Position numbers and translations under genes: made by a program | Notes under the pieces: generated by a model | What the model saw: only the letters and a program-made list of their open reading frames with translations | Told to the model about the DNA's origin: nothing | Database searches by the model: none | Source of the DNA: Algimonas arctica | GTDB taxonomy: Bacteria > Pseudomonadota > Alphaproteobacteria > Caulobacterales > Maricaulaceae | Reading direction: 5' to 3' | Length of the DNA: 36,188 nucleotides | Assembly (NCBI RefSeq): GCF_014652695.1 | Contig: NZ_BMZH01000018.1 | Coordinates: forward strand, 1 to 36,188 | Shown here: piece after piece, positions 2,010 to 23,653 of the stretch | Numbering within the stretch: the stretch's first letter is position 1 | Layout of the letters: each line of letters opens with the position of its first letter

Positions 2010-3467
2010 ATGAGCGCCATTATGACTCCCGGACAGCCGAACAATGAGACGCCGCGCGCTGCGGGTGACCTGAATATTGGTATTTCTCGGTTTTTAGGCG
2101 TTTTCACACGTGTCAAACCACACGAAGTCCAGCTGACCTTCGCTTTGCTATTGACCGTATTTTTCATGTTGACGGCTTTTTTCATCGCCAAGCCAGCGCG
2201 AGAAAGCTGGCTAGCCGTCTCCGTCATTGGAGACCTTACAGCGCTTGAAGTCAGGGCCACGTCGGGTGGATTGCAGTCTATCGTGCTGATCGCGCTGCTT
2301 CCGCTTTATGCCAAACTCTATGACATCTGGTCGCGGCGCCGCTTGCTCGTCATGGTCAACGTGTTCTTCATTGCGCTGTTCCCGGTCTTTTGGCTGTTCC
2401 AACCCGGTCTGCTGGCGGATGAAATCCTGTTCAGCGGGGTCATTTTTTATATCTGGATCGGTATCTTCGCCGTCACCGTTGTCGCGCAATTTTGGACATA
2501 TGCGGCAGACCTTTATACGCAGGACGCCGGCATGCGTCTATTTCCTCTCATTGCGGTAGGCGCATCACTCGGCGCGGTCGCGGGGAGTGCCTGCGCGGTC
2601 AAACTGATCGAAATCGGGGTTTCGTCATATGACCTACTGCTTTTTGCGCCGTTACCGCTGATTTGCGCAACGCTGATCCTATGGCGGATCGAGACGGTGG
2701 ACGCGGCTACAGGTCAAACGCCAAAAATATCACCTGACACACCGTCCGAGGACCCGCGATCAGCATGGGCGATAGTTATGGGAAACCGTTATATATTACT
2801 CATCGGTCTGTTCGTCTTCTTGCTCAACTGGGTGCAAACCAACGGCGAGAATATCTTATTCGCAGCTCTACAAGAATCCATCGAAGCGTCAGGCCCAATG
2901 GACGCAGAAAGCCGCGCAGCGATGACAGCGAACGCTTATGCCCGGATATATGTTTGGGTCGGTTTGATCGGGCTAATTATTCAAGCATTTCTGGTCTCTC
3001 GTTTGCTACGTTATGGAGGGATGGCGGGTATGTTGCTCATTCCGCCTTTCGTCGCGCTTGTGTCCAACGGTGCTATGGGCGGGGCTGTCGGTTCTGGCGG
3101 AGCACTTGGCGTCATCACCATTGCTAAGACAGCGGAGAATGCGACCAATGCGTCGATCGCTAACACGGCCCGTCATATACTTTGGTTACCTGTCGCCAAG
3201 GAGGCTCTTTACAAGGCGAAAACGGCCATCGACACGGTTTGTGTACGGGTTGCCGACGGCCTTGCGGCCATAACCGTTATCGTAGGCACACGGCTTCTTT
3301 CCGCCGACCTTAAAGCCTTTTTCACGTTCAATCTTGTGCTGGTTGTGCTATGGCTTGTGGTCGGCATTCTGATTATCCGCGAGCGCAAGGGGCGCCGCAA
3401 AGTCTGGGCCGAGCGCGAAAGGACCGCAACTTGTACAGACCCATCATCGGGGGCGTCACCGCTCTGA
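2010..3467 (+). CDS. NTT/TLC-type nucleotide transporter (ATP/ADP carrier family, MFS fold)
   Basis: Predicted inner-membrane carrier of 485 residues with about 11-12 hydrophobic helices. The sequence resembles the Npt1/Npt2 nucleotide transporters: KPARESWL in the first helix region, FWTYAADLYT in the middle, and near the C-terminus LPVAKEALYKAK followed by IDTVCVRVADGL, the usual signature of this family. Family members exchange ATP for ADP or move other nucleotides; the substrate here is unknown. The frame is open from 1761, but that upstream part is not membrane-like and begins inside IS-derived DNA, so I choose ATG 2010 (ATG 2022 is an alternative). It is the first gene of a four-gene plus-strand group; the next gene starts inside its 3' end, so the two are probably translated together. 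The neighbours are exported proteins, one with an ATP-binding fold, which makes a periplasmic nucleotide supply a possible role (inference). Confidence 0.8.
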   Translation: MSAIMTPGQPNNETPRAAGDLNIGISRFLGVFTRVKPHEVQLTFALLLTVFFMLTAFFIAKPARESWLAVSVIGDLTALEVRATSGGLQSIVLIALLPLYAKLYDIWSRRRLLVMVNVFFIALFPVFWLFQPGLLADEILFSGVIFYIWIGIFAVTVVAQFWTYAADLYTQDAGMRLFPLIAVGASLGAVAGSACAVKLIEIGVSSYDLLLFAPLPLICATLILWRIETVDAATGQTPKISPDTPSEDPRSAWAIVMGNRYILLIGLFVFLLNWVQTNGENILFAALQESIEASGPMDAESRAAMTANAYARIYVWVGLIGLIIQAFLVSRLLRYGGMAGMLLIPPFVALVSNGAMGGAVGSGGALGVITIAKTAENATNASIANTARHILWLPVAKEALYKAKTAIDTVCVRVADGLAAITVIVGTRLLSADLKAFFTFNLVLVVLWLVVGILIIRERKGRRKVWAERERTATCTDPSSGASPL

Positions 3468-4342
3468 TGTTCATGGCGGCCTCGGCTGCCTTTGGTGCTC
3501 CGCACATCCCCGTCTCTGTTCCAGACGAACAGTGGCAGCCTCTCTCTCAATCTCGCGACGCCGCCCTACAGGCGGAGCTAAACAAATATATCGACAGCTC
3601 TCCGCGCCTCGCGCGTTTGAGTAAGGATGGGCGACTGTCCGTCGCATTAGTCGATTTGTCTAATCCGTCATCGCCTCGTTACGCCGCAATCAATGGTCGC
3701 AAGACCGTTTACGCGGCAAGCATGCCTAAAATCGCAATTTTGCTGACCGCTTATGATCAGATTTCACGAGGGGTTTTGGAGGCTACGCCCGAGGTGGAGT
3801 CCGACATGAATGCCATGATACGAAATTCATCGAACGGCGCAGCAACTCGGATGATCGATCGGGTCGGCGGCCTTGACGCTATCAATATAACACTCGCCGA
3901 TCCGCGTTACGGATTATATGACGCAGAGAATGGCGGTGGGCTATGGGTTGGAAAACGTTACGCCAAGACGGGACGCCGCGTTACCGATCCGGTCGCAGGC
4001 GTCAGTCATGGCGCGTCGGCGTTCCAAACTGCACGGTATTACTATTTGCTCGCCACAGGACGCTTGGTCGATGAAGCCACGTCTTACAATATGCTGCAGG
4101 CGCTCGCGGACCCAGGCATTCGCCACAAATTCGTCGCCTCGCTTGGACAGCTGGCGCCGGACGCGGATCTTTATCGCAAAAGCGGGACGTGGCGCGATTA
4201 CCATGCCGATAGCGTCATCGTCTGGGGGGAAGAACCATGGCGGCGCTATATCCTTGTCGGGATCGTACAAAGCGATGCGGGCGGTGATATATTGAAAGAT
4301 TTGATTCCGGCTGTTGAAACCATTCTTCATCCTGAGAATTGA
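3431..4342 (+). CDS. Exported serine hydrolase, class A beta-lactamase fold
   Basis: Predicted periplasmic penicillin-recognising-fold protein of about 303 residues. All three active-site motifs are present, numbered from the TTG start: S97-M-P-K100 (SxxK), S133-S-N135 (SxN) and K250-S-G252 (KSG). There is no clear class A omega-loop motif such as ExxxN, so it need not be an antibiotic-degrading beta-lactamase; D,D-peptidase or esterase activity is equally possible. I choose TTG 3431 because AAAGGA lies 7 nt upstream (3418-3423) and because it gives a proper signal peptide (YRPIIGG, then a hydrophobic run ending SAAFGA). An ATG at 3467 overlaps the transporter stop (TGATG) but would leave a stunted signal peptide. 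The gene overlaps the transporter by 37 nt. Confidence 0.8.
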   Translation: MYRPIIGGVTALMFMAASAAFGAPHIPVSVPDEQWQPLSQSRDAALQAELNKYIDSSPRLARLSKDGRLSVALVDLSNPSSPRYAAINGRKTVYAASMPKIAILLTAYDQISRGVLEATPEVESDMNAMIRNSSNGAATRMIDRVGGLDAINITLADPRYGLYDAENGGGLWVGKRYAKTGRRVTDPVAGVSHGASAFQTARYYYLLATGRLVDEATSYNMLQALADPGIRHKFVASLGQLAPDADLYRKSGTWRDYHADSVIVWGEEPWRRYILVGIVQSDAGGDILKDLIPAVETILHPEN

Positions 4343-4389
4343 TTAACAGCGCGCACTGCGCTTTACTCGTACTGACTCCAAGGCACACT

Positions 4390-7242
4390 ATGTTGAAATC
4401 AGCTCTGCTCGGAACCGCGTTGGCCCTGATCGCCAGCGCGGCGATGGCCCGCGCCCCCGCCACAGACGCGCCGAAAGCGGCGGTCATCGATGAAGCGCGC
4501 ACGTTGGTCGACGCCATGCGCGCCAGTCCAAAAGGCCCCTACTCAAACATTCAATGGGTCTGCAAAGACGGCACCGTTCTGCCGCCCCGTCCGAGCGCCT
4601 GCGCGCCGCATGGCGGGGGCAATCAGTTCGCCAAATTCTCCGCTCAACGCGACCGCCTTGCCACACTCGGCTATCCGGTCGGGACGATTTTTCAGAATTT
4701 CGACAGCGGATCTGCCGGGCCTGATGCCCGCTCCTTTACGCGTCTGCGCGACCTCCCGCTCGAATCCTATATGATCGCGGTGGATGATGGCTGGGTGCTG
4801 CGCGGCGCGCGGTCCTATCGCGGACGCGTTCAGATCGAAGATGAAGAAGTCGCCGGACGAGACCTCTTGCTCGCCACACTCGCCAAAGCCGACCGCGCGC
4901 AGGATACTCTGCTGCTGCGCGAGCTGGCCCGCGCCATTCCTCATGGCGGCAAAAGCGACGATATCGTGCGCGAACTGCGCCGCGACAGCCAGACACTGGC
5001 CGAAACCAACCGCCGATTTGAACCTTTACGTGCCGAAATTCACGGCCAACCGAGCGCCGCGACGCTGGGCCGCGTCGAGGCGTGGGCGCGCATTAACACA
5101 GGGCTGCCGACAGAACAGAAAGCCCTTCTCGCCCGCGTTCAGGCGCAGCTAACGGAGCTCTATTCGCCCGAACAGACCCGCCAGCGGCTTGGCCGCTTGG
5201 CTGGATCATTGGGGAACAAGCTAAACGATATTGCCGTTATCCTCCGTTCTGACGCCCCGGCCTTGGACCGCACGGCAGACGCCTTGGCGCTTTCGTATGA
5301 AAAATTTCAAACTGCCACGCTCGTCGACGCCTTGCGCCTGCTCGACCTCATGACCGCGCTGGAAGCCGACGCACTTAGCGCCGCGCGCGCTCTGCCTGCA
5401 CCGGAAAACCGCGCCGAAGCCTTACGCCGTGCCGCGCAGCTAACCGACGCCGCTTATCATCTGGGCTATCTGTCTGAGAGCGAAGCCCGCCGTGTGGCCA
5501 GCCCGCTGCGCGCGTTGAACGGGAACCGTGCTGGCACGCCGCGTTACGCCGCTGCCGTCCAGCGTCTGCAATTAGTTCCGGCTTGGGCGCAGACACACGT
5601 TCGCTACGTCTTTGCCGAACCGCTGGCTAAATACACGGCGCTCGACTCGCGTGCCGCGAAATTTACCGATGATTTGTTGCGCGGGTCGATTTTGCAGCCA
5701 CTCACCGAAATTACGGAATTATTGTCCCGTGATGTCGGGCAGCTTTCTGGCATCAGTGCCTCGATCATGGGCGAGACCCGGTCCGCGCTCGCTCTCAACC
5801 CTGGCCGCGCGCAAGGCCGCTTACGTGTGGTTGAGCCCGGACCAGACGGCAGCCTACCAGCTTACGCCTCTACAGATATTGTCATCATACCCAGCACGAT
5901 AGCCGAGTTGTTTCCCGCCGCCGGAATTATTACCGTCGGCGAGGGTAATCCGCTCTCCCATGTACAAATTCTTGCCCGCAATCTGGGTATTCCCAACGTA
6001 GTTGTCTCTGCCGACTTGCAATCAGAACTCGCGTCCTATGAGGGACAAGCCGTTGAGCTGGCAGCCACCGCAGATGGGCGTGTTTTATTACGGCGAGCCG
6101 ATAATTATAAACTGCCCGCCGCCAAAGCCGGCGCGCCGTCCTCCATCGGAAAAACGGGCACGGTCCCAGCACCGCAACCTAACCTCGCCCGTATCGCACC
6201 TGTGCCATTATCCGAGCTGCAGGCGAGCTTATCAGGCAAGATCGTCGGGCCGAAAGCGGCGAATGTCGGCGAACTGGCGCGGCTATTCCCTGACCGGGTT
6301 GCGCCTGCAGTCGCCTTGCCTTTCGGTGCATTCGCCGCTCATGTCGAAGCCCCGCGCGCTGCATTGGCCCGCAGTTTTCAGGATTACCGCGCCGGACGAA
6401 TTACCGAAGACGCTTTCCTAATCGCGCTCGACACGGCGTATGACCGCGTCAAAGCCACGCCTGTCAATGCCGCCACCCGCGCTGCGTTGACCGAACAGTT
6501 AAAGGCGTTCGACCGCAGCACAGGCCTGTTCATCCGCTCTGACACGAATATGGAGGATTTGCCGCAATTCACGGGTGCAGGTCTTAACCTGACCTTGCCG
6601 AACGTGACGGGTGATAAGAATATTTTCGATGGCATTCCGGAAGTCTGGAGCAGCGTTTATACCCGCCGCGCCATGGCATGGCGTAGTCAGGTGCTGAGTA
6701 ATCCGGAAGACGTGTTTAGCTCCGTCCTGCTGATGCAGTCCGTGCCGAGCGAGAAAAGCGGAGTGCTCGTCACCACCGATCTGTCGGGACAAAACCGCCC
6801 TAACAGCCTGACCGTCAGTGTAGCTTACGGCGTTGGCGGCGCAGTGGACGGCGAGAGCGCAGCCTCTTACCTGCTGACTCCGCGTCAGGACATTGTGTTG
6901 GCAGAAGCCAAAGCCCCGTTTCAGCGTTACCTGAAACCCGAAGGCGGTGTCGGCTGGCGGCCCGCTTCATCCGGCGACATTCTCACAACGGCTGAAACCG
7001 CAGAGCTGCGTAATCTTGCCGCTGAAGTCGTAGCCCGCTATCCGGTCAGTCTTGGTCCTGACGGCAAGCCATTGCCTTTTGATATCGAATTCGGCTTCGC
7101 AGGCGGTAAGCTTTATTTGCTGCAGATCCGTCCGCTTGTGCAACGCGGGGCGGCGCTCGCCGAAACCGTGGTCGGCGCCGTTATCCCCAAACCTGTGGGA
7201 ACAAAGTCAGTATTGCTGTCCGCGCCGCTTAATAAGGAATAG
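4390..7242 (+). CDS. Exported PEP-utiliser/PPDK-like dikinase with glucan, water dikinase-like domain order
   Basis: Predicted 950-residue exported protein. A signal peptide is clear (MLKSALLGTALALIASAAMA) from ATG 4390, which has AAGG about 6 nt upstream; the ATG at 4339 would add a non-signal extension. Residues of about 30-480 are helix-rich and not recognised. Around 510-590 lies a phosphohistidine swivel domain (GEGNPLSHVQILARN, catalytic His524). From about 610 to 920 lies a PPDK-type ATP-binding domain: GPKAANVGEL (K622), IRSDTNMEDL (about 715-724), EVWSSVYTRRA, DIEFGF and LLQIRPL (to about 916). In PEP synthase and PPDK the ATP-binding domain comes first; here it follows the His domain, as in glucan, water dikinase. 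No PEP/pyruvate-binding barrel is present. It may transfer phosphate from ATP to a periplasmic glycan, but neither substrate nor ATP source is shown. It lies between two serine hydrolase genes. Confidence 0.8.
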   Translation: MLKSALLGTALALIASAAMARAPATDAPKAAVIDEARTLVDAMRASPKGPYSNIQWVCKDGTVLPPRPSACAPHGGGNQFAKFSAQRDRLATLGYPVGTIFQNFDSGSAGPDARSFTRLRDLPLESYMIAVDDGWVLRGARSYRGRVQIEDEEVAGRDLLLATLAKADRAQDTLLLRELARAIPHGGKSDDIVRELRRDSQTLAETNRRFEPLRAEIHGQPSAATLGRVEAWARINTGLPTEQKALLARVQAQLTELYSPEQTRQRLGRLAGSLGNKLNDIAVILRSDAPALDRTADALALSYEKFQTATLVDALRLLDLMTALEADALSAARALPAPENRAEALRRAAQLTDAAYHLGYLSESEARRVASPLRALNGNRAGTPRYAAAVQRLQLVPAWAQTHVRYVFAEPLAKYTALDSRAAKFTDDLLRGSILQPLTEITELLSRDVGQLSGISASIMGETRSALALNPGRAQGRLRVVEPGPDGSLPAYASTDIVIIPSTIAELFPAAGIITVGEGNPLSHVQILARNLGIPNVVVSADLQSELASYEGQAVELAATADGRVLLRRADNYKLPAAKAGAPSSIGKTGTVPAPQPNLARIAPVPLSELQASLSGKIVGPKAANVGELARLFPDRVAPAVALPFGAFAAHVEAPRAALARSFQDYRAGRITEDAFLIALDTAYDRVKATPVNAATRAALTEQLKAFDRSTGLFIRSDTNMEDLPQFTGAGLNLTLPNVTGDKNIFDGIPEVWSSVYTRRAMAWRSQVLSNPEDVFSSVLLMQSVPSEKSGVLVTTDLSGQNRPNSLTVSVAYGVGGAVDGESAASYLLTPRQDIVLAEAKAPFQRYLKPEGGVGWRPASSGDILTTAETAELRNLAAEVVARYPVSLGPDGKPLPFDIEFGFAGGKLYLLQIRPLVQRGAALAETVVGAVIPKPVGTKSVLLSAPLNKE

Positions 7243-7246
7243 TCAC

Positions 7247-8566
7247 ATGATGACCCGCTCACATCTCAAATTCACGGCCGCCGCGGCTCTCTGTGCGTTT
7301 ATGCCGATCACAGCGACCTCTTACCCCATTGATGCGCAGGACACGTCGATCAACCGTCTTAAAGGCGCAAACCCGGATAAGATGCCCGCAGGCGCGAAAC
7401 TCAGCACCGTTGATATGCATTTGCACTTGCTCGCCACACCCGGTGCCGCGTGGGACTTTGGTGGCACGCCGCGTGATGCAGAATTGCAAGCTGCGCTTGA
7501 TCAAATGTTTAAAGGGCGCGACGCCTCCTATGGGCTGGTTGTGGCGGACATTACAGATCCATCCGATATTCGTTGGGCGGGATTACGCGAAAATCGCTCG
7601 CAAATTCCAGGATCTGTCGGCAAAATCATCACGATGCTTGGCTTATTCTCAGAGTTGGAACGTGCCTTTCCCAGTATTGAAGACCGCGAACGTATTCTGC
7701 GTCAGCGCCAGATCACGGCAGGCGAGTGGGTCAAATGGGACGATCATGGCGTTCCCCATTGGGACAATGCGACAGGCACGATGAAGTCGTCCAAAATCAT
7801 GCCCGGCGAGACGTTTGCTTTGGCTGAATGGATTGATTTTGCCATTGCCTATTCCGCCAACGCCGCTGCCGCGACCATCTGGAAAGAAGCCCTCCTGCTA
7901 CGCCATTATGGCGACCAATATCCGCCCACGGCCGAAGAAGAAGCCAATTTTTTTCGCACAACTTCTAAGGCGGAATTATGGCGTCTCTCTAGCAGTGCGG
8001 TGCGCGACCCAATGATCGGCGCAGGCCTTGATCCAGATACGTTTTGGATCGGTAGCTTTTGGACTTCCACAGCCAAAACCATTGTTCCCGGAAATGGCGG
8101 ATCGCGCGGAACGCCGATGGAAATGGCGCGCTTTCTTTTGCGGATGGAACAGGGGCGGCTCGTTGACAATTGGTCATCGCTGCGAATGAAAAACTATCTC
8201 TACACGACGTCGCGCCGCTACCGCTATGTCTTCAGTGATAATTTGAAACCTGCCGCTGTCTATTTCAAATCAGGTTCGCTGTATAAATGCACGCCCGAAG
8301 AGGGCTTTAAATGCGGAAAATATATGGGTAATGCGCAGAACCTGATGAACTCCATCACTGTCGTTGAAACACCCGCCGCTGGGGTCGACGATAATGCCGG
8401 GCAAAAACGCTATATCGTCGCCATGATGAGCGATGTGCGCAAGACGAACTCCGCGTGGGACCACTCCCGCATCGGCGCGGCGGTCGACACAATGGTCCGG
8501 ACCCGTGCTGCAGCCCGAATTGCAGAAACGGCATCGGATGCGGATAAGCGCGCGGCGGGCGGGTAA
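7247..8566 (+). CDS. Exported serine hydrolase, divergent beta-lactamase/PBP-like
   Basis: Predicted periplasmic protein of 439 residues. It begins at ATG 7247 with AAGGA 8 nt upstream (7234-7238), only 4 nt after the dikinase-like gene, and has a signal peptide (KFTAAAALCAFMPITATS). Motifs in the right order suggest the beta-lactamase/penicillin-binding fold: S123-V-G-K126 (SxxK), S203-A-N205 (SxN) and K341-S-G343 (KSG). It is longer than the first hydrolase and only distantly similar, so the two are not a recent duplication. Residues KCTPEEGFKCG after the KSG motif carry two cysteines that could form a disulfide. The substrate is unknown; a peptidoglycan or ester bond is plausible. It is the last gene of the four-gene group, and the IS6 remnant begins 47 nt downstream. 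Confidence 0.65.
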   Translation: MMTRSHLKFTAAAALCAFMPITATSYPIDAQDTSINRLKGANPDKMPAGAKLSTVDMHLHLLATPGAAWDFGGTPRDAELQAALDQMFKGRDASYGLVVADITDPSDIRWAGLRENRSQIPGSVGKIITMLGLFSELERAFPSIEDRERILRQRQITAGEWVKWDDHGVPHWDNATGTMKSSKIMPGETFALAEWIDFAIAYSANAAAATIWKEALLLRHYGDQYPPTAEEEANFFRTTSKAELWRLSSSAVRDPMIGAGLDPDTFWIGSFWTSTAKTIVPGNGGSRGTPMEMARFLLRMEQGRLVDNWSSLRMKNYLYTTSRRYRYVFSDNLKPAAVYFKSGSLYKCTPEEGFKCGKYMGNAQNLMNSITVVETPAAGVDDNAGQKRYIVAMMSDVRKTNSAWDHSRIGAAVDTMVRTRAAARIAETASDADKRAAGG

Positions 8567-9146: not shown

Positions 9147-10730
9147 ATGAAATTTTCAACCGGCATAAAATTTTTAATGTTATCAAGCGCCCTGACAGCT
9201 TGCAGCGGTAACTCTGATAACGGTGGAGCAGGCGTTACCACCAATTCCGCGCCCGTTGTCGACGCAGGCTCAGCCCAATCCGCCATCGAAGGCTCGACAG
9301 TACAGCTTTCCGCGACGGCGACGGATGCTGATGGCGACGCATTAAGTTACAGCTGGTCGCAGTCGTCTGGACCCGCCGTCACTTTTAGCTCGGCGACTAT
9401 TGAAGACCCGACCTTTACAGCTCCGGATATCACATCAGAAACTGACATTATTCTAACTCTAGCTGTGAACGATGGAACGACAACGGCATCTGATACTGTC
9501 GCGATAACGATTACAGTTAGCGCCTCGACGACATCCGCAGATAATTGGATCCTCAACACGACAGAGCGGTCAACCGAAATATTTGAGAGCAGCACGCAAG
9601 CCCAAGGCGTCATGTATGATGTACAATTGGCGGAAGTTCAAACAATTGATGGGGTCGACTACAATTATGTCGAAACTGAAGGCATTCCGAAATTTGATCT
9701 TATAATTACGCAAGAGATTGTTGATGAACTGAATGACCGTCCAAAAGCCGGGACCGATTTCACGATTGGGTCAACAACAGTTAACGTCGGTGACTCGATC
9801 GTATTTGGTGAGGACATCGGCTATGTTCAAGATACGGCTGACCGTCAAAACTGCGCAGTAACAGGCGGTACAGGCTATTGGCCTCCGGGACCTGCATGCC
9901 CGATCATGCAGAGCCGTGAGGGTTACTTTACAAAGAGCCCTGCCCTGCGAGACAACGCCGTTGACGGCGCCTGTGAAACGGGGATTGGTGCAATCGGCTA
10001 TCTTGTTAACGGCGCCGCGATTTTCGGGTGGGGCGATACAATGTCATATAACAATGCCAGTGACTGGCAAAACCTGGCGATTGCCTTTGAGGTTTATGAC
10101 CTTGATGTCTGTTATGGTCACTCCGCAAACGGGGATTACCACCTTCATAGTTATGGTCGTTGCCTAAAGGAATTGCTTGGCGATGATGGAAGTGCTCACT
10201 CCCCCGTTATTGGATATGCGGCTGACGGCTTTCCTGTTTATGGCCCGTATGAATCAGAGAATACATTTGCACTCTCCGGATGGGCCACGCGCGATTTTGA
10301 TGATGTAAACAGCGCCACGGGCTGTGGGGTGGCCGGTGTCCGATCATGTGAGATGGTGGATCGTTACGACCTCTCGGCCGGCACCGTAGCTTCGCCGTCA
10401 AACGGCCCAACGACTTCTGAAATTGTATCTTCGCTTTCAGGAAACTCAATTATGGCGGTTTCCGGGACTTATTTCGAAGACTTTTATTATACAGGCGCCA
10501 CGATTACGGGGGCCCAACTTGATCAAAATAACGGTCATGATACGGGCGATGGCAAAGGGTATCATTATCACTTTACCCAAAAGCTCGAAAATGGCGTTAC
10601 AAAGCTGACTTACCCCTACACATTTGGACCGCGTTACTCCGGATCCATCCCGGATAATGCCGTAGCAAGTTGCGGGAGTAGTGACCAATCGAATGGTGGT
10701 CCTCCCCCAGGCCCTCCTCCGGGCGGTTAG
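9147..10730 (+). CDS. YHYH-domain lipoprotein with a PKD/Ig-like repeat
   Basis: Predicted 527-residue lipoprotein: signal peptide with lipobox LTAC, Cys19 lipidated. Residues of about 35-125 form a PKD/Ig-like domain (SAPVVDAGSAQSA, DADGDALSYSWSQ, LTLAVNDG). From about 150 onward is a YHYH domain (PF14240-like), with GDYHLHSYG and GYHYHFT (Y472-H475), FPVYGPYE, and several cysteines likely to form disulfides. The C-terminus is a proline/glycine tail (GGPPPGPPPGG). The function of YHYH proteins is not established; the histidine pattern suggests metal binding (inference). AAGG at 9135-9138 supports the start. The next gene begins 1 nt after its stop, so they form a two-gene operon, and IS6-type remnants lie on both sides. 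Confidence 0.85.
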   Translation: MKFSTGIKFLMLSSALTACSGNSDNGGAGVTTNSAPVVDAGSAQSAIEGSTVQLSATATDADGDALSYSWSQSSGPAVTFSSATIEDPTFTAPDITSETDIILTLAVNDGTTTASDTVAITITVSASTTSADNWILNTTERSTEIFESSTQAQGVMYDVQLAEVQTIDGVDYNYVETEGIPKFDLIITQEIVDELNDRPKAGTDFTIGSTTVNVGDSIVFGEDIGYVQDTADRQNCAVTGGTGYWPPGPACPIMQSREGYFTKSPALRDNAVDGACETGIGAIGYLVNGAAIFGWGDTMSYNNASDWQNLAIAFEVYDLDVCYGHSANGDYHLHSYGRCLKELLGDDGSAHSPVIGYAADGFPVYGPYESENTFALSGWATRDFDDVNSATGCGVAGVRSCEMVDRYDLSAGTVASPSNGPTTSEIVSSLSGNSIMAVSGTYFEDFYYTGATITGAQLDQNNGHDTGDGKGYHYHFTQKLENGVTKLTYPYTFGPRYSGSIPDNAVASCGSSDQSNGGPPPGPPPGG

Positions 10731-16819: not shown

Positions 16820-17278
16820 TTAATGACCACTATGGTCCACTTTGGCATCAAGACAATCTTCGCCGTCGGTGTCAGTTTTGCATATCGCGGTTATTCGGTA
16901 GCTGCCGTCCCGGCCTTTTTTGACCCTGAAACTGACCTTGTCGTCTTTTGCGTAATTCGACAAATCGACAGTGGATATTGTGCCGAACCCCATTGTCATT
17001 GCGGCCATTCCAACACCTTCGATTTCCTGATGGTCAATGGTCGCTTGTGAGCGGTCTGGACTGATGGAAATGATCACGCCGGTCGAGTGTCCAGAATCCC
17101 CGTCTAATGTCGCCATACCCATACCAACAGAATCCATTGTTTTTTGTTTCATCGCGCTCTGATCCATCCCCGCATTATCCATTTGGCCATGCTCCATTTT
17201 GATGGATGTCTCAGCGCCGCAGGCGGTGAGATAAAGAGCGACCACGGCGGCGAGTGTAAGTTTTGAGATGTTATTCAT
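16820..17278 (-). CDS. cusF: CusF-like copper/silver-binding lipoprotein
   Basis: Predicted 152-residue periplasmic metal chaperone. The leader ends LYLTACG, a lipobox. A Met/His-rich stretch (HGQMDNAGMDQSAMKQ, then MDSVGMGM) precedes a CusF domain (PF11604-like) from about 60: TGVIISISPDRSQATIDHQEI, AAMTMGFG, DDKVSFRVKK and YRITAI. CusF binds Cu(I)/Ag(I) through a His and two Met with a capping Trp; His (DHQEI) and the MTM pair are present, but the KWPAMTM-type Trp position reads GMAAMTM. The C-terminus ends VDHSGH. ATG 17278-17276 overlaps the cusA stop by 4 nt (ATGA), so the two are coupled. Confidence 0.85.
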   Translation of the reverse strand: MNNISKLTLAAVVALYLTACGAETSIKMEHGQMDNAGMDQSAMKQKTMDSVGMGMATLDGDSGHSTGVIISISPDRSQATIDHQEIEGVGMAAMTMGFGTISTVDLSNYAKDDKVSFRVKKGRDGSYRITAICKTDTDGEDCLDAKVDHSGH

Positions 17279-20200
17279 GCTGTATCACTTTCAAGGTTTT
17301 TATGTGTGGGTTTGAAATATTTTGGAAGATGTCGTCCGACCCACACAAAATAGATCACTGGAATGACAATAAGCGTCAGGAGTGTTGTTGAGATCATGCC
17401 CCCGAGCATAGGAAGTGCAATACGGCGCATGACGTCAGAGCCGAGACCTTCTGTCAAAAATATCGGCGCAAGACCTGCCATTACAGTCAAGACGGTCATG
17501 AGCTTGGGACGAACCCGTAACGCCGCGCCGCGGCTGACGGCCTCAAACAGCTCAGGTTTGTTTTCGGGTCGGTCCTGACGGACCTGCTGATCGATATAGA
17601 GCAACATCACAACAGCCGTTTCGACCGCGATGCCCCCCAGCGCAATAAATCCAACGGCCACAGCCACGGAAAGATTATAGCCCGCCAAATATACTGCCCA
17701 AAGACCGCCAACGAGCCCAAAGGGCAGCGACAGCATAATGATCATTGTCCGGTCAAGCCGGCCAAAGTGCAGCATCAACAGCAGAAATATTAAACCGATC
17801 GCGGCCGGAATGGCAATTTTCAGACGCTCATTGGCGCGCTGCATCTGTTGATACTGGCCTGACCATTCAATGGCATATCCTGGCGGAAGAAAGACGGCGT
17901 CGGCGACAATCGCTTTGGCCTCATTCACATATCCGCCAAGGTCACGCCCCGCAATGTCGACAAAAACCCAGCCCGTCAAACGGGCGTTCTCAGACCGGAT
18001 CATCGGCGGGCCTTCGGTGTATGCAACGCTGGCCACTTCGCGCAGCGGGATATGCGCGCCGGTGGGTGTCGGGATCAGAATGTTACCAATATCAGCATCG
18101 GTTTCACGAAAGGCGCGTTCATATCTGAGCATAATATTATAGCGCTCACGGCCTTGAACGGACTCCGCGAGGCTCATGCCGCCCAGCGCTGTTTGAATGA
18201 CACTTTGGAATGTGCCCATATCAATATTGCGGCGCGCAAGCGCGAGCCGGTTCGGCGTAATTTCAAGATATTTGCCGCCGAGAACCCGGTCGGCAAAAGC
18301 AGACCGCGTGCCGGGAATGTCGCTGACAACGGATTCAATGTCACGGGCGATCGACTCAATCTGTGTGAGGCTGTCACCCGTCACCTTGATGCCAATCGGC
18401 GTACGGATGCCGGTTGAGACCATGTCCATACGGATTTTGATCGGATAGCCCCATGAATTTACTAGGCCCGGCATTTGTAAGCGGCTGTTCAACTCATCGA
18501 CAATTCCGTCAGCGGTCATGCCAGCGCGCCATTCGGACTTTGGTTTCAGTTTTATCCAGCTTTCAATCATCGTCAGCGGCGCCGGGTCCGTCGCCGTGTC
18601 GGCGCGACCCGCTTTGCCAAATACGCGTTCGACCTCCGGCACAGTTTTGATCACGCGGTTTGTCTGGCCGAGAATTTCACGCATTTTGGTCGCGGAGACA
18701 CCCGGCAGTGTTGTTGGCATATACAGCAGCTCGCCCTCGTAGAGCGCTGGCATAAATTCGGTTCCCAGCCTCTGGGCCGGCACGATGACGCTGGCCGTGA
18801 TGAAAAGCGTGATGAGAATGGTGAGCCATTTAAACTTTAAGGCCGCCCCTATCACTGGCTTATAAATCCAAACGAAGAAACGGTTGAGGGGGTTGGCTGT
18901 TTCAGGGCGCATTTTACCCCGTAAAAGCCAGATCATCAAAACCGGAATGAGTGTGACAGACAAAAGCGCGCCAAAGGCCATGGCATAGGTTTTGGTAAAA
19001 GCGAGCGGCGAGAAGAGGCGGTAACTCTCACCCGTCAGCGCAAAGACAGGCAAGAAAGACACAACAATAATGAGAAGCGAGAAAAACAATCCCGGACCGA
19101 CTTCCTTTGCCGCCTCAATCAGAACGCGCCTGCGTGTCGGTTCGTCCGGTTTTCCCTCAAGGTCTGCGAGTTTTCGAACCCCGTTTTCGACCATGACAAT
19201 GGACGCATCCACCATCGCACCAATAGCAATGGCAATCCCTCCCAACGACATAATATTGGCGGTTACACCTTGGGCGGACATGATGATGAAAGCGCCCAAG
19301 ACCCCGAGCGGCAATGTGATGACAGCCACGAAAGCCGCCCTGAAATGCAGTAAGAACAGGAATATAACGAGGGCCACGACAAGGCCTTCCTCAATCAGCT
19401 TATCTTCCAAGTAGGACACAGCTCCCTCAATGAGTGGGGCGCGGTCATAGACCGTGACAATTTCAACGCCCTCTGGCAGCCCACGTTGTAACGCGGCGAG
19501 CTTGTCTTTGACGCGGTCAATAACGTCCAGCGCGTTTTCGCCGTCACGCATGACAACAATGCCCGCCACGGTTTCACCTTCACCGTTCAACTCAACGATG
19601 CCGCGTCGCAACGCAGGACCTTCGACAATACGGGCGACATCCGACAGAAGAACAGGTGTTCCATCTTTGGCCAACACGACGACTTGCTCTAGATCCAGCG
19701 CTGTTTTGACATAGCCTGAGGAGCGGATGACATATTCGGTTTCGCCCTGTTCAAGAACACGGCCGCCCACTTCGCTACTAGCCGCGCGGATGGCGCGGGC
19801 GAGCGTCGCGATGGTCACGTCATAGGATTCCAACTGATTGGGGTCGATGAGAACTTGATATTCACGCTCGAAACCGCCGACGGACGCCACCTCGGAGACG
19901 CCTTCCACACCGGACAATTCCAATTTCAAGAACCAGTCCTGCAGGCTTCTGAGTTCCGCCAGATCAGTCCGACCGCTCTTATCGACCAAAGCATATTGGT
20001 AAATCCAGCCAACCCCTGTCGCGTCAGGCCCGATTTGCGGCACGGCATTGTCCGGCAATTCAGACCCCAAGCGTGACAGGGCTTCGACAACGCGGGAGCG
20101 GGCCCAATAAGGGTCGACGCTATCTTCAAAAATGACATAGACGAAGCTCGTACCAAACATGGAGGAGCCGCGAACATCTTTCGTTTTCGGCAGCCCCAGT

Positions 20201-20469
20201 AAGTTTGTCGAGAGCGGATAGGTCACCAGATCTTCCACGATTTGAGGTGACTGCCCCGGGAATTCCGTTCGGATGATGACCTGTGTATCCGTCAAATCCG
20301 GGATGGCATCGAGCGGCATATTCTTGAGCGATATCCAGCCAGCAACCGCGAGGGCCAAGGCCATGACAACGATAATTAGTTGATTGGCGACGGACCAGCC
20401 GATCAGCTTTGCAACCGCTGACTTTGACGGATCCCTGCCCGCAAGATTTTCGCCTGTCACCTTGCTCAT
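17275..20469 (-). CDS. cusA: CusA-type heavy-metal efflux RND pump
   Basis: Predicted 1064-residue inner-membrane proton-driven transporter that exports Cu(I)/Ag(I) with CusB and CusC. Length and sequence match the HME-RND family throughout: N-terminal helix after VANQLIIVVMALALAV, PLDAIPDLTDTQVIIRTEFPG, porter domains, GGIAIAIGAMVDASIVMVEN with the proton-relay acidic residues in TM4, and LRVRPKLMTV near the end. The three methionines that bind metal in E. coli CusA appear kept: LLYMPTTLPG, APLTMIESW and IRMDMVSTGIRTPIG. That argues for monovalent copper/silver rather than Zn/Co. The gene overlaps cusB by 4 nt upstream and cusF by 4 nt downstream. Confidence 0.95.
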   Translation of the reverse strand: MSKVTGENLAGRDPSKSAVAKLIGWSVANQLIIVVMALALAVAGWISLKNMPLDAIPDLTDTQVIIRTEFPGQSPQIVEDLVTYPLSTNLLGLPKTKDVRGSSMFGTSFVYVIFEDSVDPYWARSRVVEALSRLGSELPDNAVPQIGPDATGVGWIYQYALVDKSGRTDLAELRSLQDWFLKLELSGVEGVSEVASVGGFEREYQVLIDPNQLESYDVTIATLARAIRAASSEVGGRVLEQGETEYVIRSSGYVKTALDLEQVVVLAKDGTPVLLSDVARIVEGPALRRGIVELNGEGETVAGIVVMRDGENALDVIDRVKDKLAALQRGLPEGVEIVTVYDRAPLIEGAVSYLEDKLIEEGLVVALVIFLFLLHFRAAFVAVITLPLGVLGAFIIMSAQGVTANIMSLGGIAIAIGAMVDASIVMVENGVRKLADLEGKPDEPTRRRVLIEAAKEVGPGLFFSLLIIVVSFLPVFALTGESYRLFSPLAFTKTYAMAFGALLSVTLIPVLMIWLLRGKMRPETANPLNRFFVWIYKPVIGAALKFKWLTILITLFITASVIVPAQRLGTEFMPALYEGELLYMPTTLPGVSATKMREILGQTNRVIKTVPEVERVFGKAGRADTATDPAPLTMIESWIKLKPKSEWRAGMTADGIVDELNSRLQMPGLVNSWGYPIKIRMDMVSTGIRTPIGIKVTGDSLTQIESIARDIESVVSDIPGTRSAFADRVLGGKYLEITPNRLALARRNIDMGTFQSVIQTALGGMSLAESVQGRERYNIMLRYERAFRETDADIGNILIPTPTGAHIPLREVASVAYTEGPPMIRSENARLTGWVFVDIAGRDLGGYVNEAKAIVADAVFLPPGYAIEWSGQYQQMQRANERLKIAIPAAIGLIFLLLMLHFGRLDRTMIIMLSLPFGLVGGLWAVYLAGYNLSVAVAVGFIALGGIAVETAVVMLLYIDQQVRQDRPENKPELFEAVSRGAALRVRPKLMTVLTVMAGLAPIFLTEGLGSDVMRRIALPMLGGMISTTLLTLIVIPVIYFVWVGRHLPKYFKPTHKNLESDTA

Positions 20470-22313
20470 GGGGTTTCACCTGCACTTGCAGGCCTCATAG
20501 GGTCAGGCCACGGGATGACTTGAGCATTGGCATTTGAATAAGGATTCGCAGGTAATCCTCCGTCTTGAAGCCAAAGCCGCCCTGTTTCGTCATCGCTGTA
20601 AAATATAAGACCTTCAGTTTTATAATGGGCGGGCGCTCCCTGCGTGAGCCACGGATCAAGCGCCGTCATTAAAGTGGATAGCTCACTGGCTAATGGCGAC
20701 CCTGTCGGGTTGTCTTTCGCACCGTATATGGCGCGTTCCGCAGCATCCAAAATCGGCATAAGTCTGGAGCCCGTAAACCGGATTTTTAAGTTCTCAATCA
20801 GTGTAAGTGTCGGGTCGAGAAAGGAAGGGTCAATCGAATAGCCGTCGATCAGGGCTTCGTGGAAATAAAGCGCCGTATCAACCATGTGGTCAATCTGGCT
20901 GAGTGTGCCACCATCAATCGGCAGGTCTGATAGCGCTGTTGAGCTATCAAATCCGGAGGTCGGTTCGCTTAGCTTTGATAAGCCTTCCCGCAGGTTCGCC
21001 TCGGAATCGAGCATGAACTGCCCACTTGCGACAATACGTTCACCGGATTTGAGACCCAATAAAACCTCAGTCCGTCCGCCTATGCTGGTCCCGATTTCTA
21101 TTGCCCGCGGTTCAAACCGGCCCTCGCCGAGCGCGATGATAACATGCGCGCCACGGGAGTCGCGCAGAACCGCTTGGCTCGGCACGGAAAGTTGCGTCGT
21201 AGGCGGCGTTTCTGACAGACCGGCCTCAAAGGTAATGTCGGCATAGGCTCCGGGTCGCAAAGACCCTGAAACATTATCAACACTAATCCTGACGCGCGCG
21301 GTTCGTGTTTTCACGTCAATGGTCGGGTAGATATAATCAACCGTGCCGGTTCGGGCGGCATCCGGGGCGCTTTCAAATTTCAACTGCGCCGTATTGCCAA
21401 TGCGCATCGCGGGTAAATCCGACTCGGGCACAGACGCGATGACCCACACTTTATCGTAGGCCTGTAACTCCATAACGGCGTCGCCGGGTTTTAAGTAATC
21501 GCCATCTCGCACCATCAGCGCCGTCACCACACCCGCGCTTTCCGCATAAATCGGAACAGTCTCAACCAGCTCACGGGTCTCCGTCAGGCGGTCCACGAGG
21601 TTGGTTTGCATGCCCTTGGAGAGCAGCCTTTGCCGCACGGACGCGATCCGCCGCGCATTGCCGATCTGGAGCGAGGCCAGATAGTCCTTTTGCGCCGCGA
21701 TCAACTCAGGTGTGTAAATGCTATAAAGACGCTGACCTCGGCGAACGATGTCTCCTTCCGCACGCACACTCAGGCCACTGATCCAGCCTTCCAACCGTGA
21801 GGCCACCATCGATTCAAGCCGCGTATTGGGCTCCACTGTGCCGAAAGCGCGCAAGCTCTGCGTAAAATCGGATGTGCTGACAAGGGCTGTTCTTATGCCC
21901 ATCGTCTGGATCATTTCGGGAGAGACGCTCACGCCGCCGCTTTGCTTTTCACTCTCGTAGACGGGAATATAATCCATCCCCATACTGTCTTTTTTAGGCA
22001 CGGGAGACGTGTCCGGGAGGCCCATCGGATTTTTGTAATAGAGGATGTCGCCCGTGCCGGACGACGTCGAAGACCCGCTCTCTTTGACAGGCACAAGATC
22101 CATGCCACAGATTGGGCAGCTCCCCTGAGGGTCATCGGAAATATAATGCGGGTGCATGGGGCATGTGTAAGCGCCCGTTTCAGCATGGGATGTGTCTGTC
22201 TGTGTTTGGGAAGACTGACGGCCCTGCAAGACCGCATCATTTCTTGCGGCGGGGTCACACGCCGCCAAGATCAACGCAAGGCCGAGTAGAGGCGCGGTTT
22301 TATAATAGCTCAT
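20466..22313 (-). CDS. cusB: CusB-type RND periplasmic adaptor with heavy-metal-binding domains
   Basis: Predicted 615-residue membrane-fusion lipoprotein (leader ends LILAAC). Near residues 48-78 is a heavy-metal-binding domain: YTCPMHPHYISDDPQG, then CPICGMDLVPV. A second similar strand pattern follows (ILYYKNPMGLPDTSPVPKKD, then GMDYIPVYE). The adaptor proper has a lipoyl-like hairpin (RLEGWISGLSVRAEGDIV), an alpha hairpin (PELIAAQKDYLASL) and beta-barrel domains (YDKVWVIASVPESDLPAM). The C-terminal 140 residues resemble DUF3347 (HMVDTALYFHEAL; LWLQDGGLPANPY), but the metal-binding Cys/Met residues usual there are not seen. It overlaps cusC by 4 nt upstream and cusA by 4 nt downstream. Confidence 0.93.
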   Translation of the reverse strand: MSYYKTAPLLGLALILAACDPAARNDAVLQGRQSSQTQTDTSHAETGAYTCPMHPHYISDDPQGSCPICGMDLVPVKESGSSTSSGTGDILYYKNPMGLPDTSPVPKKDSMGMDYIPVYESEKQSGGVSVSPEMIQTMGIRTALVSTSDFTQSLRAFGTVEPNTRLESMVASRLEGWISGLSVRAEGDIVRRGQRLYSIYTPELIAAQKDYLASLQIGNARRIASVRQRLLSKGMQTNLVDRLTETRELVETVPIYAESAGVVTALMVRDGDYLKPGDAVMELQAYDKVWVIASVPESDLPAMRIGNTAQLKFESAPDAARTGTVDYIYPTIDVKTRTARVRISVDNVSGSLRPGAYADITFEAGLSETPPTTQLSVPSQAVLRDSRGAHVIIALGEGRFEPRAIEIGTSIGGRTEVLLGLKSGERIVASGQFMLDSEANLREGLSKLSEPTSGFDSSTALSDLPIDGGTLSQIDHMVDTALYFHEALIDGYSIDPSFLDPTLTLIENLKIRFTGSRLMPILDAAERAIYGAKDNPTGSPLASELSTLMTALDPWLTQGAPAHYKTEGLIFYSDDETGRLWLQDGGLPANPYSNANAQVIPWPDPMRPASAGETP

Positions 22314-23653
22314 GATGACACCAATAGGCTGTTCATTTTTGCGATCATCTGATCACGCAGAGTGTGTTGTTTGACGATTTCAGCACGCAGCATAAGAACG
22401 GCAATTTCGCCGTCCAAGATCGACGAATAATCCCCCGTGCCCGCCTCATAGGTGATCAACTGCGCCGCGGTTTGCACGTCAATGGCCCGTATTTTCTGCT
22501 CGATGATTTGAGTGTTTCTAACGGCCGTCCGGCGTCTAGCCTCATAGCGTGACCACTCAGACTGAACTTGCCGCGCAATCGCCGTTCGCCGTGCTAGCGC
22601 GGCCTGTTTGTCTGTTTTAGCGGCGCGCAGATTAGGTTCTTGGCGTTTACCAGCCCATAAAGGGATCGAGAAACTGACCCCGCCGGACACCCAATCGTCT
22701 CCGTCAAAGTTAGACCGCGGGCCTTTTCCAGATTCCCGCTGTTGATAGGTTAGATTGACACCCCAATCAGGTTTAAAATCGGCTTTCGCGCGTTGCACAT
22801 CGGCATCGGATATATCGACGGCCGCGTCCGCCACGCGGACGTCATAAAACCCTAACGCATTTCCAACCCAAGCGGTTTTCGAAAGCCTCGGCATGTCTGT
22901 ATCAGGAATGAAGCCGAGAAGATTGACGAGCTCGGCATTGATCTCGGCCTCGCGTCCGTCCAGCTCTGCCAAAGACAAAACGACTTCCGTGCGCTCTACG
23001 TCAACTTTTGCTAGCCGGAAAACTAGCGGGCGACTCGCATTGATTTCGATGTCGATGATATCGGCCAATTCATCATATTTGGCGTGACGCGCTGCCGCCA
23101 AATCACGCTGCTCATTGAGACTTTGTTTCTCGATCAAATAGACCAAGACCATGCCGCGAAGCCGGGCATATTGTTGCTCGCGTTCTAATTCCTGAGCGTC
23201 GGCCTGTCGGGTTGATTTCAAGGCATTGGCTTCGCGTTCCGACCGGCTAGGCAAGGCCTGACGTATCCCCACGGCTTTGTTGGAGGGGAGATATTCGGTT
23301 AAAGACGGGTCAAACAGCGGCACATTGTTAAGTTGCAATGAGACCACTGGGTCTGGCAGTCCAAGCGCGCCTTCTGCACGCTGTCGGTTGGCTTGCGCGC
23401 TCAGGTCAAGGGCATTGAGCGACGGATGCGCGCGCAATATCTCCTCTAGCTCTGAAAACGCGACAATGCGTGTCTCAGCGCGGGCATATTGCAAAGGCGC
23501 GATTTTGGAAGCACCTATTAATTCAGGCTCATAGAGCCTGTCTTGGGCGCTCACTGTTGAATGCAGGCTAAGAACACTAATGCCCCCGAACAGAAGCGAC
23601 AGTGTTCCTGCCCGCAGCGGGACATGAGGACGTGATAGGTAGCGGATATACAT
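22310..23653 (-). CDS. cusC: CusC-type TolC-family outer-membrane efflux protein
   Basis: Predicted 447-residue outer-membrane channel with a signal peptide (GTLSLLFGGISVLSLHSTVSA). It shows the doubled helical layout of TolC-family proteins: HPSLNALDLSAQANRQRAEG, then GLPDPVVSLQLNNVPL, and later ADAAVDISDADVQRAKAD, then FKPDWGVNLTYQQRESG and GGVSFSIPLWAG. The final helix contains YEAGTGDYSSILDGE, a usual family pattern. The start ATG 23653 lies 69 nt after the upstream Cys-rich gene. It completes the CusCBA tripartite pump; overlap with cusB is 4 nt. Confidence 0.88.
   Translation of the reverse strand: MYIRYLSRPHVPLRAGTLSLLFGGISVLSLHSTVSAQDRLYEPELIGASKIAPLQYARAETRIVAFSELEEILRAHPSLNALDLSAQANRQRAEGALGLPDPVVSLQLNNVPLFDPSLTEYLPSNKAVGIRQALPSRSEREANALKSTRQADAQELEREQQYARLRGMVLVYLIEKQSLNEQRDLAAARHAKYDELADIIDIEINASRPLVFRLAKVDVERTEVVLSLAELDGREAEINAELVNLLGFIPDTDMPRLSKTAWVGNALGFYDVRVADAAVDISDADVQRAKADFKPDWGVNLTYQQRESGKGPRSNFDGDDWVSGGVSFSIPLWAGKRQEPNLRAAKTDKQAALARRTAIARQVQSEWSRYEARRRTAVRNTQIIEQKIRAIDVQTAAQLITYEAGTGDYSSILDGEIAVLMLRAEIVKQHTLRDQMIAKMNSLLVSS

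Follow-up and report, generated by a model that had tools for sequence, protein, structure and literature searches.

A conserved four-gene module in Algimonas arctica that pairs a predicted exported dikinase-like protein with a divergent NTT-type carrier

Introduction

The 36,188-nucleotide (nt) contig NZ_BMZH01000018.1 of Algimonas arctica, the whole of which is referred to below as the window, carries at positions 2010–8566 four genes, all on the forward strand, whose association raises a question: what would a dikinase-like protein with an ATP-binding domain be doing outside the cytoplasm, and could the nucleotide carrier encoded beside it provide the ATP? The original prediction, made from the letters of the window, was that an NTT-type carrier could supply nucleotide to an exported dikinase, which would phosphorylate a glycan or wall polymer on which two exported serine hydrolases also act. 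It is practically certain that the four genes form a real, conserved module. The best explanation of this module, put forward here tentatively as one that falls a little short of probable, is a dikinase in the periplasm that acts on a wall-associated acceptor and receives its ATP through the NTT.

The genes, and the parts of the dikinase-like protein to which the text refers, are as follows.

2010–3467, forward strand: NTT, a divergent NTT-type membrane carrier (nucleotide transporter family) of 485 residues, starting at ATG 2010
3431–4342, forward strand: SH1, a predicted exported serine hydrolase resembling class A enzymes and PBP-A, with TTG 3431 as the chosen start (PF13354, 1.2e-12)
4390–7242, forward strand: DIK, a predicted exported dikinase-like protein of 950 residues, with a helical N-domain, a His swivel domain and an ATP-grasp domain
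4390–4455, forward strand: signal-like segment of DIK, residues 1–22, with the cleavage site set by eye
4471–5757, forward strand: helical N-domain of DIK, residues 28–456, the presumed acceptor domain, which carries the invariant C58 and C71
5959–5961, forward strand: codon of His524, the swivel-domain histidine that presumably becomes phosphorylated; all 50 relatives compared have it
6241–7158, forward strand: ATP-grasp (PPDK_N) domain of DIK, residues 618–923, recognised by Pfam and with ATP-site residues kept in 50 of 50
7247–8566, forward strand: SH2, a predicted exported class-A-like serine hydrolase of 439 residues (PF13354, 7.8e-7), which in the sampled genomes occurs only together with DIK

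The tight, co-directional packing first described for these genes, with overlaps or gaps of at most 47 nt, is confirmed by the coordinates of their open reading frames: NTT and SH1 overlap by 37 nt, SH1 and DIK are separated by 47 nt, and DIK and SH2 by 4 nt. The overlap holds for the TTG start of SH1, which also gives a clean signal peptide; the longest SH1 reading frame runs from ATG 3350.

Conservation of the module

A scan of a genome collection with DIK gave at least 584 confirmed relatives. The named loci (L numbers) are the best 80 of these rather than a random sample, and belong to Pseudomonadota (65), Thermodesulfobacteriota (8), Gemmatimonadota, Acidobacteriota and Myxococcota (2 each), with 1 unplaced. 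When the genes around DIK were counted in six frames, stop to stop, at scores above 60 bits, a procedure whose labels are imperfect where frames overlap, SH2 was present at 77 of 81 loci (the 80 plus the window), SH1 at 58, NTT at 46 and all four genes at 43. At the 45 loci whose flanks on either side of DIK exceed 4 kb the corresponding numbers are 43, 38, 30 and 29, such that the co-occurrence of the four families for which the original prediction proposed a search is indeed found. In 76 of its 77 cases SH2 follows DIK downstream in the same orientation, and SH1 and NTT are each found on both sides of DIK, on each side in both orientations. Since side and strand vary and proximity nevertheless persists, these genes appear to have been reshuffled and to have stayed together. 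Fifteen well-flanked loci lack an NTT; in 14 of the genomes concerned (L129 was left out) a search found one elsewhere in 13 cases, in 7 of which it adjoins an SH1, and some of these 13 carriers, to judge from their positions, may sit just past the fetched flank.

The same association appears in whole genomes (G numbers). DIK was detected in 24 of 398 genomes (E ≤ 1e-20); SH2 occurs in 23 of these 24 and in 0 of the 374 others (E ≤ 1e-30), and NTT in 21 of 24 against 31 of 374. As 19 of the 24 DIK-positive genomes in this uneven sample fall within one genus, inferred to be Mariprofundus, the counts are also given by genus: 5 of 6 against 0 of 207 for SH2 (Fisher p 1.7e-9) and 4 of 6 against 18 of 207 for NTT (p 1.1e-3). 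Two single cases also speak for the link: in G241, which has no SH2, an intact DIK shares its contig with an NTT (an SH1 was not seen on that contig), and G653, complete in one contig, combines a catalytically depleted DIK relative with the absence of both NTT and SH2 at 1e-5. At a contig end of G577, which was counted as NTT-negative, there is a fragment of an NTT (2.2e-27).

Within the genus of the window, 18 genomes, some of them incomplete, gave real DIK matches only in the window's own genome and in G011, where contig ends break the copy but the two termini of DIK are visible, along with an NTT and an SH2. The nearest relatives of the window among the best 80 loci are the gammaproteobacterial L053 and L060, at 52% identity and with the same gene order, which makes transfer of the module between classes likely. 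L106 is a metagenome-assembled contig labelled Klebsiella pneumoniae; its module resembles those of environmental gammaproteobacteria, and the label is probably wrong.

A larger operon was considered and set aside, no further neighbour family recurring in more than 9 of up to 84 loci. A plasmid-borne trait was likewise set aside, since DIK found no match on plasmids at 1e-15.

The dikinase-like protein

DIK of the window matches the Pfam families PPDK_N (2e-25) and PEP-utilizers, the phosphohistidine domain (5e-6), and among 50 relatives these families are found in 50 and 49, respectively. The residues H524, K622, R716, E722, D723, E900, Q912, R914, C58 and C71 are identical in all 50 of these close relatives, and the His524 singled out in the original prediction is the histidine of the His domain. 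R716 aligns with Arg117 of rifampin phosphotransferase (Rph), a residue required for the activity of that enzyme according to the available part of PMC4844700. The hallmarks of the superfamily that comprises pyruvate phosphate dikinase (PPDK), phosphoenolpyruvate (PEP) synthase, Rph and alpha-glucan water dikinase (GWD), that is, an ATP-grasp and a phosphohistidine domain with the catalytic His and the ATP-site residues kept, are all present, and there are good grounds in the sequence for expecting DIK to perform dikinase-type catalysis.

Loss of ATP binding in homologues would have spoken against the predicted activity; the ATP-site residues are kept in all 50 close relatives and lost in one distant one. 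This last protein, L044:8057–10969 of G653, retains both cysteines and the signal segment; it has lost His524 and five ATP-site residues (the full set being H524, K622, R716, D723, E900 and R914), falls outside the 50-member alignment, and yields no domain with Pfam. Its sequence is that of what is possibly a non-catalytic binding protein.

The AlphaFold model of DIK has a mean pLDDT of 87.5 and a pTM of 0.86. Its best fold matches in the PDB by Foldseek, Rph (3.6e-14) and PEP synthase (3.1e-10), are made via the ATP domain, and the DIK profile matches the PDB sequences 8a8e (2.7e-37) and 2ols, of the PEP synthase/PPDK group. The N-domain of 429 residues, modelled separately with a pLDDT of 90.7, gives no fold match in the PDB at E ≤ 0.001, and the best E in a sequence search of the PDB is only 0.2. 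DIK thus defines a dikinase family whose acceptor domain, as the helical N-domain is presumed to be, is unmatched among solved structures.

Rph (PDB 5hv1–5hv3, 5fbs) shares with DIK the ATP-grasp domain, the His swivel domain and the dikinase-type residues. Its domains follow the order ATP, rifampin-binding, His (PMC4844700, available part), whereas those of DIK follow the order helical, His, ATP; the two orders are therefore related by circular permutation. Moreover, a fold search with the N-domain of DIK does not recover the rifampin-binding domain (E ≤ 0.001), and the NCBIfam Rph model gives 74.8 bits, far under its cut-off of 999. On these grounds of missing rifampin-binding domain, different order and missed cut-off, identification of DIK as a rifampin phosphotransferase was rejected. 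We know of no export signal in Rph. PEP synthase and PPDK also have PPDK_N and PEP-utilizers domains; DIK differs from them in its reversed order, its predicted export and the lack of any PEP- or pyruvate-binding domain by Pfam. In GWD the His domain precedes the ATP domain, as it does in DIK. GWD1_pHisD matches just 1 of 50 DIK members (E ≤ 0.01), no starch-binding family was detected by Pfam in the 50 members, and DIK is, as a further difference, predicted to be exported; the first two results led to the rejection of DIK as an alpha-glucan water dikinase.

Export

The N-terminus of window DIK is a typical signal sequence without a twin arginine. A hydropathy rule (threshold 1.9) that is anchored on the conserved N-terminal motif, and is not a trained predictor, finds a hydrophobic stretch preceded by a start codon ahead of that motif in 72 of 76 testable relatives, and in 27 of 405 control windows from the interior; 5 further relatives were untestable. 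Three of the four misses reach hydropathies of 1.66–1.86, below the threshold, and the fourth lies at a contig start without a start codon. A cruder first test for signal peptides had given 75 of 98 DIK proteins against 169 of 457 background reading frames, its many misses arising because scripted start codons were often placed too late. DIK is therefore predicted with high confidence to be exported, as first supposed, rather than cytoplasmic.

Were the N-terminal segment instead a cytosol-facing membrane anchor, or a mis-call, DIK would use cytosolic ATP. The opening for such an explanation is that export is predicted only, by a simple hydropathy rule; the excess of signal-like segments over the control windows, the two invariant cysteines C58 and C71 and the envelope type of the partner hydrolases together render it highly improbable.

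The serine hydrolases

SH1 and SH2 of the window match the Beta-lactamase2 family (PF13354) with the E values listed above, as do, at E ≤ 0.001, 59 of 59 SH1 and 64 of 68 SH2 proteins. SxxK, SxN and KSG are invariant in all 59 SH1; in the 68 SH2 the invariant residues are S123xxK126, S203xN205, K341 and G343, and S342 is kept in at least 90%. By family match and catalytic motifs, therefore, both are of the class A beta-lactamase or PBP-A type, and the two serine hydrolases of the original prediction stand. The only relative of the SH1 profile in the PDB at E ≤ 0.01 is PBP-A (TLL2115, 2j7v; 5.5e-5), a DD-peptidase close to class A beta-lactamases, which has DD-carboxy- and endopeptidase activity according to the available part of PMC11189452. 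The likeness lies in the profile match and in the motifs SxxK, SxN and K-S-G of SH1; the differences are that SH2 has no match among PDB sequences at 0.01 and that SH1 and SH2 are associated with a dikinase and an NTT.

A PG_binding_1 domain is found on 3 of 68 SH2. One of the three, L094:10846–12447, carries it at the C-terminus (4.1e-13). In seven loci of the genus inferred to be Mariprofundus (L035, L036, L039, L042, L047, L048 and L052), two copies of SH1 flank or adjoin the module, sometimes with an NTT between them.

The idea of a wall polymer as target gains some support from these peptidoglycan-binding domains and from the relation of SH1 to PBP-A, and what we infer from it is the identity of the acceptor: because the partner hydrolases look wall-directed, a wall-associated acceptor is possible, if somewhat doubtful. 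The hydrolases could also be accommodated by detoxification in the envelope, in which DIK would phosphorylate an incoming antibiotic or small molecule, as Rph does in the cytosol, while SH1 and SH2 open others. Such a role fits with Rph having the nearest ATP domain among solved structures and with the membership of both hydrolases in a beta-lactamase family. It is all the same very unlikely, given an N-domain whose fold matches neither the rifampin-binding domain nor anything else in the PDB (E ≤ 0.001), the different domain order, the lack of DIK matches on plasmids, the presence of DIK in 19 genomes of one sampled genus, where it resembles a housekeeping trait, and the peptidoglycan-binding domains of some SH2.

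The NTT-type carrier

The NTT label was the weakest of those in the original prediction, and the likeness to known NTTs shows more clearly in a profile of the clade than in the single protein. Taken alone, the window carrier falls under both Pfam cut-offs (TLC 14.3 against 21 bits, MFS_1 29.1 against 33.4) and far under the NCBIfam NTT cut-off. A profile of 16 window-type cluster carriers, with HEAT-fused members excluded, matches the ATP/ADP carriers CpNPT1 (9j3n, 2.4e-13) and AtNTT1 (9j3j, 7e-11) in the PDB and no other MFS structure, the next match at E ≤ 10 being a designed protein at 6.1; the alignment with both carriers is nearly full length and includes the K-rich region before A-I-D. 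An ordinary MFS carrier was rejected, as NTT structures alone among carriers are matched by this profile. Judged by such comparisons, the carrier appears to be a divergent NTT, akin to CpNPT1 and AtNTT1 over nearly its whole length, yet, in the window, below the family cut-off. A search of the window's own genome with PF03219 was uninformative, as 14 control genomes gave no match either.

The cluster carriers split into several subclades in a quick tree that carries long-branch warnings, and those of L055, L069, L073 and L117 are fused to HEAT repeats. Both NTTs and NTT-HEAT fusions are documented in free-living bacteria, where the available part of PMC5381601 assigns them no function. At L141, L142, L144, L145 and L151, away from DIK, an SH1 stands beside two tandem NTT genes, the second of which falls in the long HEAT-type clade.

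It might be supposed that the carrier moves some other envelope metabolite, DIK then using another phosphoryl donor or running in reverse, and the sub-threshold TLC score of the window protein lends itself to this, as does the statement in the available part of PMC5381601 that for most NTTs of free-living bacteria the substrates are untested, the roles being largely so too. Such a carrier is unlikely, however, with ATP-site residues of DIK identical in 50 of 50 relatives, with the extended alignment to two ATP/ADP carriers, and with 19 of 22 cluster carriers matching TLC at E ≤ 0.1. Indeed, the alphaproteobacterial cluster carrier of L045 reaches 74 bits against the 21-bit TLC cut-off.

Proposed mechanism

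In enzymes of the dikinase superfamily the swivel histidine is phosphorylated from ATP, AMP and phosphate are released, and the phosphoryl group is passed to an acceptor (PMC4844700, available part). For the module, the sequence of events would be that the NTT in the inner membrane exports ATP and presumably takes back spent nucleotide in return; that exported DIK binds this ATP in its C-terminal ATP-grasp domain; that His524 of the swivel domain becomes phosphorylated in the periplasm, with release of AMP and phosphate; and that the phosphate is transferred to an acceptor bound at the helical N-domain. SH1 and SH2 would act on this acceptor too, either ahead of its phosphorylation or afterwards; it would probably be peptidoglycan or a molecule attached to peptidoglycan.

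The original prediction is upheld in part. Its module, its export signals and its catalytic and ATP-site residues are well supported at the level of sequence, and from them we infer the dikinase reaction, the outward direction of ATP transport and the acceptor. The components of this proposal differ in their likelihood. That the NTT serves as the nucleotide supply would seem, by a small margin, probable. The complete proposal of a dedicated periplasmic ATP supply, in which the NTT exports ATP for the phosphorylation of the wall, or of a wall-bound molecule, by an exported His-swivel dikinase with an unseen acceptor fold, is rather doubtful.

Several points weigh against a dikinase fed with ATP by the NTT. 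The periplasm of Gram-negative bacteria is regarded as devoid of ATP. The proposal draws on sequence, a predicted structure and gene context, and the carrier of the window scores under the TLC threshold of Pfam. Genomes of the genus taken to be Mariprofundus mostly carry their best-scoring NTT away from the DIK locus, and part of the genome-level association of NTT is therefore no link at the locus. NTT also occurs in the 31 DIK-negative genomes counted above. Lastly, G496 has an intact DIK and SH2 with no NTT at 1e-5, and G793 has DIK with no NTT at 1e-10; the NTT is not strictly obligatory for a DIK locus.

The last two genomes are also what would be expected if DIK were exported and fed by nucleotide from lysed cells or the medium, the NTT importing nucleotides for salvage, and characterised NTTs of parasites do take in host nucleotides, as described in the available part of PMC5381601. 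Salvage is nonetheless fairly unlikely, for the NTT is close to DIK at 46 of the 81 loci in every combination of side and strand, and salvage alone leaves the two hydrolases unexplained. No description of a system in which an NTT feeds an exported dikinase was found in the literature searched, namely the best-ranked matches among open-licence papers, a result that is no proof of absence.

Surroundings of the module

Upstream, the neighbour of the module in the window is an adenosine deaminase gene (307–1320), and just downstream lies a gene for a YHYH-domain protein with a PKD domain (9147–10730). Farther on, positions 17275–23653 hold an RND efflux set with a heavy-metal-binding adaptor (ACR_tran, HlyD_D23 with HMBD, OEP), which reads as Cus-like. 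At eight other loci (L066, L068, L070, L092, L100, L105, L106 and L107) a pyruvate-kinase-like gene, read from the sequence without a search, is found within 8 kb of DIK. A scan for promoters and terminators gave signals no commoner than in shuffled sequence. PADLOC matched none of the four proteins, and a role in anti-phage defence was set aside for that reason.

Implications

The coupling of a relative of ATP/ADP carriers to a predicted exported dikinase, in a module as widespread as this one, makes the rule of an ATP-free periplasm directly testable. Beyond this, the module would point to a function for part of the NTT carriers found in free-living bacteria.

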